Assembly (NCBI RefSeq): GCF_002214465.1
Contig: NZ_CP015101.1
Location: 937,013 to 1,001,012, forward strand
Direction: 5' to 3'
Source: Thermococcus barossii
GTDB lineage: Archaea > Methanobacteriota_B > Thermococci > Thermococcales > Thermococcaceae
DNA length: 64,000 nucleotides
Part shown: positions 7,117 to 19,267 of the stretch, in pieces
How the letters are laid out: every line of letters starts with the position of its first letter
How positions within the stretch are numbered: position 1 is the first letter of the stretch
The notes under the pieces: model-generated
What the model saw: the letters and a program-made list of their open reading frames with translations, nothing else
What the model was told of the DNA's origin: nothing
Database searches by the model: none
Made by a program: the position numbers and the translations under genes

Positions 7117-7981
7117 TCCTCTCCGCTATCTCCCTCATCGCCTCGGCCGCCCTTGAATCCGGGAAGGCCTCGACGAAGGGCTTGAGCATGCTCATGCTCC
7201 TCGGAATGGCCCTGTCGTAGGGTATTTCTCCGAGTATCGGGATCCCCTCCGTTTCGGCCCACTCCCTCAGGGCGGTGAAGCCGGGGTTGAGGTCGGCCTT
7301 GTTGATTATCAGGTAAGCCGGCTGCCTGAAGTGCTGGACCACCTTGTGGGCCCTCTGGACGTCGCTGAGGGAAGCGGGGGTCGGCTCGGCAACGAGTATC
7401 GTTAGATCGGCCCCGCCTATGCTCGCTATGACCTGACAGCCTATTCCAGCGGCGCTGTCCACTATCATGTGCTCCAGGCCAAGCTCGCCCATGAGCTTTT
7501 TCGCCCACTCCTTCTCCTCTGTGACCAGCTTTCCGCTGTTGGGCCTGCCGACGTCGAGCTGGGCCGAGATCAGCGGGAAGCCGTAGCGGGTGGTTGTCTT
7601 CCTCACCACGCCGGAGCGGACTTCCTCCAGCGTTATCGTCCCCGGAACCGGGCAGACCAGGCCGCAGACGTTGCAGCCCTCGCAGGTCAGCTCGCTCACC
7701 ACGTAGTCACCGTCTATAACCTTGATGCAGTCGTAGGGACAGCGCTCCTGGCAGATGCCGCACCTTATGCAGCTCTCGGTGTTTATCCTCGCCACCTTTG
7801 CACCTATCAGCTCCTTCTCCTCCTCCCAGCGCTCGACGCCGAGGAGCAGGTCGAGGTTCGGCGCGTCCGCATCTGCATCAACGGCAACGAAACGGTACTC
7901 GTCCTTCAGCAGGTAGAGGAGAGAAGCGGTGACGGTGCTCTTTCCAACGCCGCCCTTGCCGCTCGCTATAACCAGCTGCAT
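7094..7981 (-). CDS. MinD/Mrp-family P-loop ATPase with inserted [4Fe-4S] ferredoxin domain (second of pair)
   Basis: 295 residues. The deviant Walker A ASGKGGVGKST is near residues 6-16 with VDADADAPNLD following. Two ferredoxin-type clusters are inserted at about residues 69-110: C-x2-C-x2-C-x3-C in CIRCGICQERCPYDC and again in CEGCNVCGLVCPVPG. A switch motif IVDSAAGIGCQV and the base-recognition NKADLN follow. Proteins of this kind (MinD-type with 4Fe-4S insert) are thought to carry or insert metal centres. Start ATG 7981 overlaps the TGA of the upstream paralogue by one base, so the two are a transcriptional and probably functional pair, perhaps a heterodimer. The last 23 bp converge with the neighbouring gene. 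Confidence 0.88.
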   Translation of the reverse strand: MQLVIASGKGGVGKSTVTASLLYLLKDEYRFVAVDADADAPNLDLLLGVERWEEEKELIGAKVARINTESCIRCGICQERCPYDCIKVIDGDYVVSELTCEGCNVCGLVCPVPGTITLEEVRSGVVRKTTTRYGFPLISAQLDVGRPNSGKLVTEEKEWAKKLMGELGLEHMIVDSAAGIGCQVIASIGGADLTILVAEPTPASLSDVQRAHKVVQHFRQPAYLIINKADLNPGFTALREWAETEGIPILGEIPYDRAIPRSMSMLKPFVEAFPDSRAAEAMREIAERIREEILR

Positions 7982-8850
7982 CACTCACCACCTCCGAGGA
8001 ACTCGACGACCCTGGAAGCGATCTCCCTGAAAATCCCGGCCTCAGGATAGTCGCTCAGGACTATCGGCTTCCCCTCAACGTAGCTCCTTATGACGTTCTC
8101 GCTGTAGGGGATCTCGGCTATCACTTCCGCCCCGTACCTCTCCGCTATCTCGCGCACCCTGCCCACGTCGCCGAGGTCGGAGCGGTTCACTACGACCATC
8201 GCGGGAATGTCCATCAGCTTAGCCAGCCTGAGTATCAGCTCGCCGTCGTGGATTCCGAGGGGCGTCGGCTCCGTGACGGCTATGATGAGTCTTGAGTCCT
8301 CAAGGGCCTTCGACACCGTGTTGCTCGTTCCGGCCGCAGTGTCCACTAGGAGAAGCTCCTTCCCGAGGGCCTGGGCGCGCTTCTTCGCCCTCGAAACTAT
8401 CGGCATGGCCCTCTCCTCACCCTCAAGGAGCCTTCCCGTAACGAGCGGGAAGCCGTAGGGCGTCTCGGTGAGGTAGGTGTGCCCCATCAACTTTTTACCC
8501 GGCAGAATCGCTCCGGGAACCGGGCAGACTATCTCACAGGCAGCGCAGCCGGAGCAGAGGTTCGGCATCAGGAAAGGTGTCCCGTCGCGCATGGTGATTA
8601 TCGCGTGCTCCTCACAAACTTCCGCGCACTTCCTGCACCGGGTGCACTTCGAGTAGTCAAACCTGGGCATGAACAGCTCCACCGGCTCCTCGTTGGCCAG
8701 CTCCACGCCGAGGAGGAGGTGGTCGTTGGGGGCCTCAACGTCGAGATCGGCCAGGGCCAGATCGTAGTGCTCTCCAAGTGCTATCGCGAGGTTTATCGCG
8801 ACCGTTGACTTTCCGGTTCCTCCCTTCCCACCGCTCACCGCTATCTGCAA
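7981..8850 (-). CDS. MinD/Mrp-family P-loop ATPase with inserted [4Fe-4S] ferredoxin domain (first of pair)
   Basis: 289 residues from TTG 8850, fixed by GGAGGTGAG 5-6 nt upstream. Walker A SGGKGGTGKST is at about residues 6-16. Two cysteine clusters (CTRCRKCAEVC and CSGCAACEIVCPVPG) form an inserted two-cluster ferredoxin module as in the paralogue downstream. DTAAGTSN and NRSDLG complete the nucleotide fold. The protein should bind ATP and two [4Fe-4S] clusters in the cytoplasm. The divergent neighbour is a NifX-domain gene, a pairing known from other prokaryotes, which supports a joint role in handling a metal cluster or cofactor. Its promoter holds a DtxR-like TTAGG-N4-CCTAA box, implying metal control. 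Confidence 0.9.
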   Translation of the reverse strand: MQIAVSGGKGGTGKSTVAINLAIALGEHYDLALADLDVEAPNDHLLLGVELANEEPVELFMPRFDYSKCTRCRKCAEVCEEHAIITMRDGTPFLMPNLCSGCAACEIVCPVPGAILPGKKLMGHTYLTETPYGFPLVTGRLLEGEERAMPIVSRAKKRAQALGKELLLVDTAAGTSNTVSKALEDSRLIIAVTEPTPLGIHDGELILRLAKLMDIPAMVVVNRSDLGDVGRVREIAERYGAEVIAEIPYSENVIRSYVEGKPIVLSDYPEAGIFREIASRVVEFLGGGE

Positions 8851-13198: not shown

Positions 13199-13445
13199 AA
13201 TGTCAATTCAATCGAGAAAAAAGACGCAATTTTAGAGTTGTTTATGACGAACTAACGACGCAGGTATTTGATTAGCCTTATCTAAGGTTTTAGCAAGTCC
13301 GAAATATGCTAAAAAAGCGGATGAAACCAGCAAAAATACTACCGGGAAATAAACGAGTATGAGCGGATATCGTCAGTTCCAGTTTTGATATCAGATTTCA
13401 AGCTGTAGGAACAAATTCAATTAGGTCCACCGAAAACTTTAAATG

Positions 13446-13461
13446 TTGTGCATATGCACAA
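13446..13461. promoter_or_regulatory. NifX-promoter palindrome, copy B (perfect)
   Basis: TTGTGCATATGCACAA is a perfect 16-bp palindrome. It begins directly after the TATA (ACTTTAAATG, about 13434-13445), covering the region between TATA and transcription start, where a bound protein would block the polymerase. A 14/16 match is at 8894 and a weaker one at 14389. Confidence 0.75.
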
Positions 13462-13490
13462 AATAATAGAAAGAAAATGAGGTGGTCGAT

Positions 13491-14102
13491 ATGAGGATCG
13501 CGATACCCACCAATGGTGGAGGGCTTGAAGACACCGTTGCCCCGGTCTTTGCCAGGGCGCCGGCTTTCCTCATAGTGGACGTTGATGAGAACGGCAACGT
13601 CACCAACAGCAAGGTAATCCAGAACGGTGCCGCGATGGCCGGAGGTGGAGCTGGACCGATGGCGGTTCAGACCCTCATCAACGAGGACGTTGAAGCGATA
13701 ATAGCACCGCAGGTCGGCCCGAACGCACTCGGCGCGATACAGGCTGCAGGCATAAGGCTGTATCAGGTCGCCCCGGGAACACCAGTTGAGGAGGCCATAA
13801 AGGCTGTCACCAGCGGAAGCGTTGGTCAGTTCACGACCCCAGTGGCACCAGCTCCAGCAACTGCAACAGCTCCCGCACCGGCCTACGGGCCATACCCAGC
13901 GGCCCCGGCTTACCCGGCCTACCCCGCCTACGGCTACGGCCCAGGCTGGGGCAGAGGCTGGGGCCGCGGATGGGGACGTGGAAGAGGTTTCGGACGCGGA
14001 TGGGGCAGAGGCGGCAGAGGCTGGGGAGCAAGGCTCGGCTACTGCCCCTGGACCGGCCAGCCAAGCAGAAGAACTCTTCGCTGGCTTTACGGCTGGTGGT
14101 GA
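13491..14102 (+). CDS. NifX-domain protein with Trp/Gly/Arg-repeat C-terminal tail
   Basis: 203 residues; ATG 13491 follows GAGGTGG by 5 nt. Residues 1-110 are a NifX/TM1290-type domain (MRIAIPTNGGGLEDTVAPVF at the start, then the IVDVDENG strand, AAMAGGGAGPMAVQTLI, IIAPQVGPNAL and AAGIRLYQV). A Pro/Ala/Tyr linker (about 115-150) leads to a tail built of WGRG units and GRGFGRG, ending GYCPWTGQPSRRTLRWLYGWW, of which the last part is aromatic and basic. The tail could bind nucleic acid, metal or membrane. The domain should bind a metal cofactor by family analogy. A U-rich tract after the stop is a likely terminator. Confidence 0.82.
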   Translation: MRIAIPTNGGGLEDTVAPVFARAPAFLIVDVDENGNVTNSKVIQNGAAMAGGGAGPMAVQTLINEDVEAIIAPQVGPNALGAIQAAGIRLYQVAPGTPVEEAIKAVTSGSVGQFTTPVAPAPATATAPAPAYGPYPAAPAYPAYPAYGYGPGWGRGWGRGWGRGRGFGRGWGRGGRGWGARLGYCPWTGQPSRRTLRWLYGWW

Positions 14103-14155: not shown

Positions 14156-14392
14156 ATGCCACGCGGAATGGGAAGGGGCTACGGCAGATTTGGGGGAGGA
14201 TACGCCCGATACGGGTTCTCTCCATTTGGCGGGGCCTACGGTCTAATCGACCTGCTCTTCCTCATCGGAATTCTGTACTTTCTGGTCAAGCTCTTCATAG
14301 TTGCCGCCCCGTACGCTCTCGGCCTCGTGGCCCTTTTAATCCTGCGGTCGCTCCTGAGACCCCGCTTCCCGGGCTGGGGAGGGCCATTTTGA
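14156..14392 (+). CDS. Small Gly/Arg-rich two-helix membrane protein
   Basis: 78 residues; ATG follows GGAGGAACATGCG. The N-terminus MPRGMGRGYGRFGGGYARYG repeats the Gly/Arg/Tyr-rich style of the NifX tail upstream. Two hydrophobic segments follow (about 30-46 and 48-65), then a basic end RSLLRPRFPGW. It is probably an inner-membrane protein with both Arg-rich ends in the cytoplasm. It sits between two NifX genes and shares their composition, so I infer a membrane partner of the tailed NifX proteins. The N-terminus recalls the Met/Gly/Arg-rich DUF5320 type of peptide, but the identity is uncertain. Confidence 0.7.
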   Translation: MPRGMGRGYGRFGGGYARYGFSPFGGAYGLIDLLFLIGILYFLVKLFIVAAPYALGLVALLILRSLLRPRFPGWGGPF

Positions 14393-14449: not shown

Positions 14450-14926
14450 ATGAGGATTATAGTTTCAACAATAAACGGTGGTCTCGACGACAGAGTTAAC
14501 CAGGCCTTCGGAAGAACCCCCACTTTCACGATAGTGGACGTTAAGAACGGGCAGATAGTTAACGTTCAAGTGGTCCAGAACCCCGGCTATAGCCAGCCGA
14601 GGGGAGCTGGAGTTACGGCGGCGCAGTTCTGCATTGATCAGGGGGCGGATGTCGTCATAGCGGGTCAGTTCGGGCCCAACTCCTCGGGAGTACTCCAAGC
14701 TGCTGGCATAAGGATGGTATCGGCGCCGGCCACAATGACCGTCAGGGAGGCAGTTGAGGCTTTCCTGAGGGGCGAGCTCACCCAGGCAGTTTTTGGCCCC
14801 GAGGGGGGAGCCGGACCGGGAGCGGGATACGGGATGGGAAGAGGCAGAGGAATGGGCGGCGGTATGGGTCGCGGAAGAGGCATGGGCCGTGGAATGGGAA
14901 GAGGTAGGGGCGGTGGCGGCTGGTGA
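14450..14926 (+). CDS. NifX-domain protein with Met/Gly/Arg-repeat C-terminal tail
   Basis: 158 residues; ATG follows GGAGGTGATGTGCA. Residues 1-112 are a NifX/TM1290-type domain (MRIIVSTINGGLDDRVNQAFG, split as VSTINGG and DRVNQAFGRTPTF, then the PRGAGVTAAQFCIDQGAD helix, GQFGPNSSGVLQ and AAGIRMV). The last 40 residues are repeats of MGRGRG and GGGMGRG. A single cysteine (in AAQFCID) is visible in the core. It is a paralogue of the product of the gene at 13491, with a tail of different residues but similar charge, probably acting with it. A T-rich terminator follows. Confidence 0.84.
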   Translation: MRIIVSTINGGLDDRVNQAFGRTPTFTIVDVKNGQIVNVQVVQNPGYSQPRGAGVTAAQFCIDQGADVVIAGQFGPNSSGVLQAAGIRMVSAPATMTVREAVEAFLRGELTQAVFGPEGGAGPGAGYGMGRGRGMGGGMGRGRGMGRGMGRGRGGGGW

Positions 14927-18885: not shown

Positions 18886-18910
18886 AGCCACCGTACCGAT
18901 TTTGATAGCC

Positions 18911-19267
18911 ATGCCGATGGGAATGGGACCTGGATGGGGCCGAGGCAGGGGTAGAAGAAGGAAGATGCGCATGATTGGATTTATCCCCCAAGTTAGGCAT
19001 TTTTATCCTGCCCTATCCCCGGCCGGACAGCCAAAACCGCCGATTTTCATGACGTATGAGGAATTTGAGGCCATTCGGTTGGTGGACTATGAGGGACTAA
19101 CCCAGGAAGAGGCGGGGAAGAAGATGGGTGTCTCAAGAGGAACAGTCTGGAGGGCTTTGAGCTCGGCCAGAAAAAAGGTTGCACAAATGCTGGTTGAAGG
19201 AAGGGAACTGATAATCCTGCCTCAGGGAAACGAGGTCCCAAAAAATGCTGGCGAAGAAGAGCTGTAA
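18911..19267 (+). CDS. DUF134 family helix-turn-helix regulator
   Basis: 118 residues from ATG 18911. The first 20 residues (MPMGMGPGWGRGRGRRRKMR) are a Met/Gly/Arg-rich stretch like the NifX tails at 14 kb. Then MIGFIPQVRHFYPA, the DUF134 signature PIFMTYEEFEAIRLVDYEGL, and a sigma-70 region-4-like HTH (TQEEAGKKMGVSRGTVWRAL) with a basic recognition helix and SARKKVAQMLVEG follow. DUF134 proteins are found, from memory, next to NifX and Fe-S ATPase genes in bacteria and archaea, so this is the best candidate regulator of the module, including the palindrome sites. That link is inference. Confidence 0.86.
   Translation: MPMGMGPGWGRGRGRRRKMRMIGFIPQVRHFYPALSPAGQPKPPIFMTYEEFEAIRLVDYEGLTQEEAGKKMGVSRGTVWRALSSARKKVAQMLVEGRELIILPQGNEVPKNAGEEEL

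Follow-up and report, generated by a model that had tools for sequence, protein, structure and literature searches.

The window analyzed here, a stretch of 64,000 nucleotides of the Thermococcus barossii genome, encodes a NifX-type protein with a tail rich in Trp, Gly and Arg, which we identify, with a probability of roughly 0.93, as the Thermococcus ortholog of IssA (formerly SipA), a protein whose NifX-type core would nucleate thioferrate and whose tail would hold it, giving rise to storage particles. Both the protein and its tail are already described in the literature. The protein is known and remarkable, and the finding of the tail by itself adds little; what is added is an almost invariant C-terminal end with a Cys, for which the published charge-wrapping model has no need, together with a specific candidate operator and a candidate regulator (DUF134) through which archaea amenable to genetics might control thioferrate storage in response to iron and sulfide.

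Identification of the IssA ortholog

The coding sequence and its parts are as follows.

13491..14102, + strand: issA (sipA) coding sequence, 203 aa (PF02579, E=8e-21 for the core; single-copy orthologs sharing this tail throughout Thermococcales; layout like that of P. furiosus IssA)
13491..13817, + strand: NifX/IPR003731-type core, aa 1-109 (phmmer to MTH1175, PDB 1eo1, E=3.6e-21; AlphaFold2 block with pLDDT ~75-89)
13818..13937, + strand: Pro/Ala/Tyr linker, aa 110-149, freely varying, with many indels
13938..14018, + strand: WGRG and GRGFGRG repeats, aa 150-176, copy number variable, composition kept
14019..14099, + strand: C-terminal module GWGARLGYCPWTGQPSRRTLRWLYGWW, aa 177-203, which carries the protein's sole Cys, near invariant (n=49)

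We placed the start at the ATG at 13491, which directly follows a Shine-Dalgarno-like gaggtgg; the mechanical open reading frame starts at a GTG at 13482. The 94-residue tail contains 11 Arg/Lys, no Asp/Glu, 19 aromatic residues, 22 Gly and 13 Pro, and ends in a module that starts with GWGARLGYCPWTGQPSRR and finishes in GWW. No Cys was present in the core and one was present in the tail in every complete ortholog locus. AlphaFold2, run with 11 sequences, gave pLDDT values of ~75-90 for the core and below 50 for residues 118-197, leaving the tail without confident structure. The preliminary description had correctly recognized the NifX core, the linker and the Trp/Gly/Arg tail, in both sequence and coordinates.

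IssA was characterized in P. furiosus as PF2025 (Q8TZG9) by Vaccaro et al. 2017, who described it as storing iron and sulfide in thioferrate nanoparticles (PMC5524996). According to that description, a 109-residue IPR003731 domain leads through a segment rich in Pro into a cationic tail that is rich in aromatic residues and Gly and holds the only Cys; the 70 tail residues comprise 7 cationic and 14 aromatic ones, 15 Gly, 11 Pro and one Cys, and the authors consider the tail highly conserved in Thermococcales (PMC5524996). The window protein has the same layout: an IPR003731/PF02579 domain of ~109 residues, then a Pro-rich and a cationic, aromatic and Gly-rich part with a pI above 10, a lone Cys in the tail, and conservation of the tail among Thermococcales (n=49). 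Tail composition is also close to that published, with 12% Arg plus Lys, 20% aromatic residues, 23% Gly and 14% Pro here versus 10, 20, 21 and 16% in P. furiosus, and a pI of 11.2 versus 10.7 (PMC5524996). The window protein is longer (203 versus 179 aa), as are its linker and repeats. P. furiosus IssA was compared through its published description, so that the case for orthology is made by architecture, composition, gene order and conservation across the family.

The issA locus was conserved and syntenic, including in a genome (G074, locus L105) that we take to be T. onnurineus NA1. Gene order in this genome fits, by gene counting, an assignment of TON_0916 as the MinD-type ATPase (SipB) and of TON_0919 as IssA. 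TON_0919 has been reported to be sulfur-induced (PMC4463584), as has the Palaeococcus pacificus ortholog (PMC6981617), and expression of issA in P. furiosus is described as sulfur-induced and iron-dependent (PMC5524996).

The PF02579 domain is also found in NifX, the C-terminal domain of NifB, ORP and MrpORP. These families were considered and rejected: the protein had no match to the nifX NCBIfam model, and its matches to the nifB and MrpORP models were far below the curated cut-offs. In addition, no nitrogenase context was seen in the examined part of the window. The core fold is shared with MTH1175, which served as the template for IssA in PMC5524996; unlike the window protein, MTH1175 has, according to the same source, little or no tail.

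Conservation of the tail

Orthologs of issA were gathered from Thermococcus and from four further genus groups within the family. The tail was kept in essentially every complete Thermococcales ortholog examined, including those of three genomes (L088, L090 and L092), presumably Pyrococcus. A 40-residue tail query matched 78 of the 115 genomes in the phylum, almost always at one place per genome; outside Thermococcales, the same phylum yielded only isolated weak matches besides issA. A scan of genome contigs returned Thermococcus metagenome-assembled genomes and weak bacterial matches to the core, and nothing new on the tail.

Among 49 Thermococcales sequences, pN/pS was 0.20 for the core, 0.52 for the linker, 0.24 for the WGRG part and 0.19 for the C-terminal module; these values are rough, with pS near saturation, although the linker is still clearly apart from the other parts. 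Mean pairwise amino acid identity in the same set was 78, 53, 87 and 83%, respectively. Thirteen positions of the C-terminal module, the Cys among them, did not vary in any of the 49 sequences, and in the stretch LGYCPWTGxPxRR all named positions were found in every sequence except for Trp (46/49). The tail is thus under selection, with the WGRG repeats and the final 27 residues constrained to the same degree as the core, while the linker drifts. Codon usage in the tail is mixed (GGC, GGA and GGT for Gly; CGC, CGT and AGA for Arg). Selection on the peptide, which had been suggested earlier from the varied codons, is borne out by these codons and by pN/pS values of the repeats and the C-terminal module close to that of the core; the alignment of orthologs that was proposed as a check likewise found tail composition kept, rather than the tail being absent or freely varying.

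Proposed role of the tail

In the mechanism we favor, the NifX-type core would bind iron and sulfide and nucleate thioferrate, (FeS2-)n, and the flexible cationic, aromatic and Gly-rich tail would hold the anionic chain, mainly through Arg charge and contacts by Trp and Tyr. Many monomers would then come together as storage particles that could later release Fe and S for Fe-S clusters. Thioferrate, particles, Fe/S binding by the core and in vitro cluster transfer to ferredoxin have been demonstrated for the P. furiosus protein, and binding of the cationic tail to anionic thioferrate was proposed by its authors from charge and composition (PMC5524996); we infer the same contact here. Although the published wrapping model would work without a fixed sequence, the last 27 residues hardly vary. 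This strict conservation, which extends to the Cys, suggests that the module makes a specific contact and may have a particular job beyond bulk charge, such as Fe ligation or capping/docking. The strictness of the module and the operator described below go beyond the description of IssA compared here (PMC5524996).

Tails of this kind had been called unexpected on a metal-cofactor protein and linked to binding of RNA, DNA or membranes, or to condensation. The first point is not supported, as the orthologous IssA is an experimentally characterized Fe-S storage protein whose same tail was described in 2017 (PMC5524996), and its storage role needs neither nucleic acid nor membrane binding, for which we found no support. 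Condensation fits loosely with the large assemblies that IssA forms; however, the 1-109 core of the P. furiosus protein alone binds Fe/S and oligomerizes to ~200-900 kDa (PMC5524996), and the tail is therefore at most a possible driver. A tail serving mainly in nucleic acid binding, or in RGG-like condensation driven by RNA, would give the protein an RNA- or DNA-linked role. The resemblance to RGG/WGRG tails and the predicted lack of structure agree with such a role, but we consider it very unlikely given that the characterized ortholog is described as a homomeric Fe-S storage particle without other associated protein (PMC5524996) and that issA lies with Fe-S genes and has a candidate operator in common with them.

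Anchoring of the protein to a membrane or surface by the tail is even less probable. Ends rich in Trp and Arg can lie at membranes, and the adjacent gene encodes a small membrane protein with a GRG tag, but in P. furiosus the IssA bodies are located in the cytoplasm (PMC5524996), and any tethering could be done by the neighboring membrane protein itself. Variation in the copy number of the repeats and in the linker might also point to a functionless, neutral low-complexity tail that arose by repeat slippage. This explanation is hardly credible in view of the pN/pS values of 0.19-0.24 in the module and repeats, the mixed codons and the thirteen invariant module positions, and chance or slippage was rejected on the basis of the 49-sequence analysis. 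Storage of thioferrate by an IssA ortholog remains our preferred reading.

Genes near issA

Several neighboring genes are relevant.

14156..14392, + strand: small membrane protein whose N-terminus is MPRGMGRGYGR; cotranscription with issA is possible (in 36/39 loci examined; no Pfam match)
14450..14926, + strand: second NifX-type protein with a GMGRGRG tail (PF02579, E=8e-22)
7981..8850, - strand: MinD-type ATPase with a ferredoxin domain, likely SipB by gene-order comparison with the presumed T. onnurineus NA1 locus
18902..19267, + strand: DUF134 helix-turn-helix protein with N-terminus GPGWGRGRGRRRK, candidate regulator of the palindrome described below (PF02001, E=9e-27)

The N-terminus of the small membrane protein reads MPRG(M/F)GRGYGR across loci. 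The second NifX was found in 17/39 loci with the pattern used, and its Met/Gly/Arg tail recurs in those 17. Two further genes whose products have GRG-rich ends lie 3' of issA, an arrangement for which no example was found in the literature searched, and four GRG-tagged proteins (IssA, the membrane protein, the second NifX and the DUF134 protein at 18902) are encoded close together. The small membrane protein and the second NifX are possibly part of the particle or of its tether.

A candidate operator upstream of issA

A perfect 14-bp palindrome was identified just 3' of the TATA-like box of issA.

13430..13444, + strand: BRE/TATA-like promoter element CCGAAAACTTTAAAT, conserved with minor changes in 30 loci (L001-L030)
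13447..13460, unstranded: palindromic operator candidate TGTGCATATGCACA, identical in 30/30 Thermococcus loci, where it lies 34-50 nt upstream of the start codon
8895..8908, unstranded: degenerate palindrome TGTGCATACGCTCA between the SipB-like ATPase gene and a divergent (third) NifX gene; the corresponding position in T. onnurineus (L105:3285) reads TGTGCATATGCTCA

The exact palindrome was present in 85 of 94 genomes of the family, versus none of 94 for a reversed control pattern. Two exact copies occur in the genome of the window, one 5' of issA and one 5' of another NifX gene at 310947. Nearly all of the family-wide sites read were located shortly 5' of issA, a NifX paralog, an FmdE-like gene, a SipB-type ATPase gene (with the exact palindrome in two Pyrococcus genomes, L060 and L061), Mrp/NBP35 or a cation-efflux gene, where names other than NifX come from reading the sequences; one of the remaining sites was 5' of a permease gene and a few were not assignable. 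We also noted a copy with two mismatches just 5' of a sulfide-dehydrogenase-like gene in the same genome (L056:1501).

The location of the palindrome downstream of the issA TATA box would suit a repressor. At the NifX paralog elsewhere in the genome the palindrome lies upstream of the TATA-like box, and the mode of regulation may therefore differ by promoter. No SurR site (GTTN3AAC) was detected within 150 nt before the issA start in 30 loci. The motif was not found in this setting in the literature searched, although Leyn and Rodionov 2015 (archaeal DtxR regulons) may describe it.

DUF134 as a candidate regulator

The DUF134 gene of the window is the only one in its genome. In a second archaeal phylum (around genome G060), only 7 of 200 genomes contained the exact palindrome, and DUF134 was present in all seven, compared with 76 of the 200 overall (hypergeometric P = 0.001). 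Four exact sites in this phylum adjoin a DUF134 gene, and four sites (three of them the same) lie 5' of a gene for a small GRG-rich protein, after which NifX follows. When 30 DUF134 loci of the phylum (L138-L167) were searched, 12 had a palindrome with at most two mismatches, versus 0.1 expected in shuffled sequences. The recognition helix SRGT(I/V)WR, which the DUF134 protein of the window also has, tracks the occurrence of the palindrome: 11/15 proteins with this helix versus 1/~37 hand-counted others (Fisher P ~2e-7, uncorrected for relatedness). In a third phylum (around G059), in which the DUF134 helix is SQPTFHR, no palindrome excess was observed, and the link is therefore limited to one DUF134 type. 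These patterns make DUF134 with the helix SRGT(I/V)WR a good candidate regulator of the palindrome; neither the palindrome operator nor its link to DUF134 was found in the literature searched.

On balance, we lean slightly toward a single regulon that would comprise issA and NifX paralogs, the SipB-type ATPase, Mrp/NBP35, FmdE-like and cation-efflux genes, with TGTGCATATGCACA as its operator read by DUF134, acting as an iron/sulfide switch in two archaeal phyla, and in which the GRG-tagged proteins of the issA cluster would join IssA in building or tethering the particle. If true, this regulon would be the missing iron/sulfide switch of thioferrate storage.

Free-standing GRG-rich proteins

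At four loci of the second phylum (L131-L133 and L135), the palindrome is found 5' of genes for free-standing GRG-rich small proteins, followed by NifX. These small proteins contain GYC or TGLPGWMRFG motifs like those at the end of the IssA tail. They are probably of the DUF5320 type. They resemble the IssA tail in being GRG-rich, in having a GYC motif and in occurring beside NifX with the same palindrome (L131-L133), but they are free-standing, whereas the tail of IssA is fused to its NifX-type core. It would seem that tail and core are encoded separately in this phylum.
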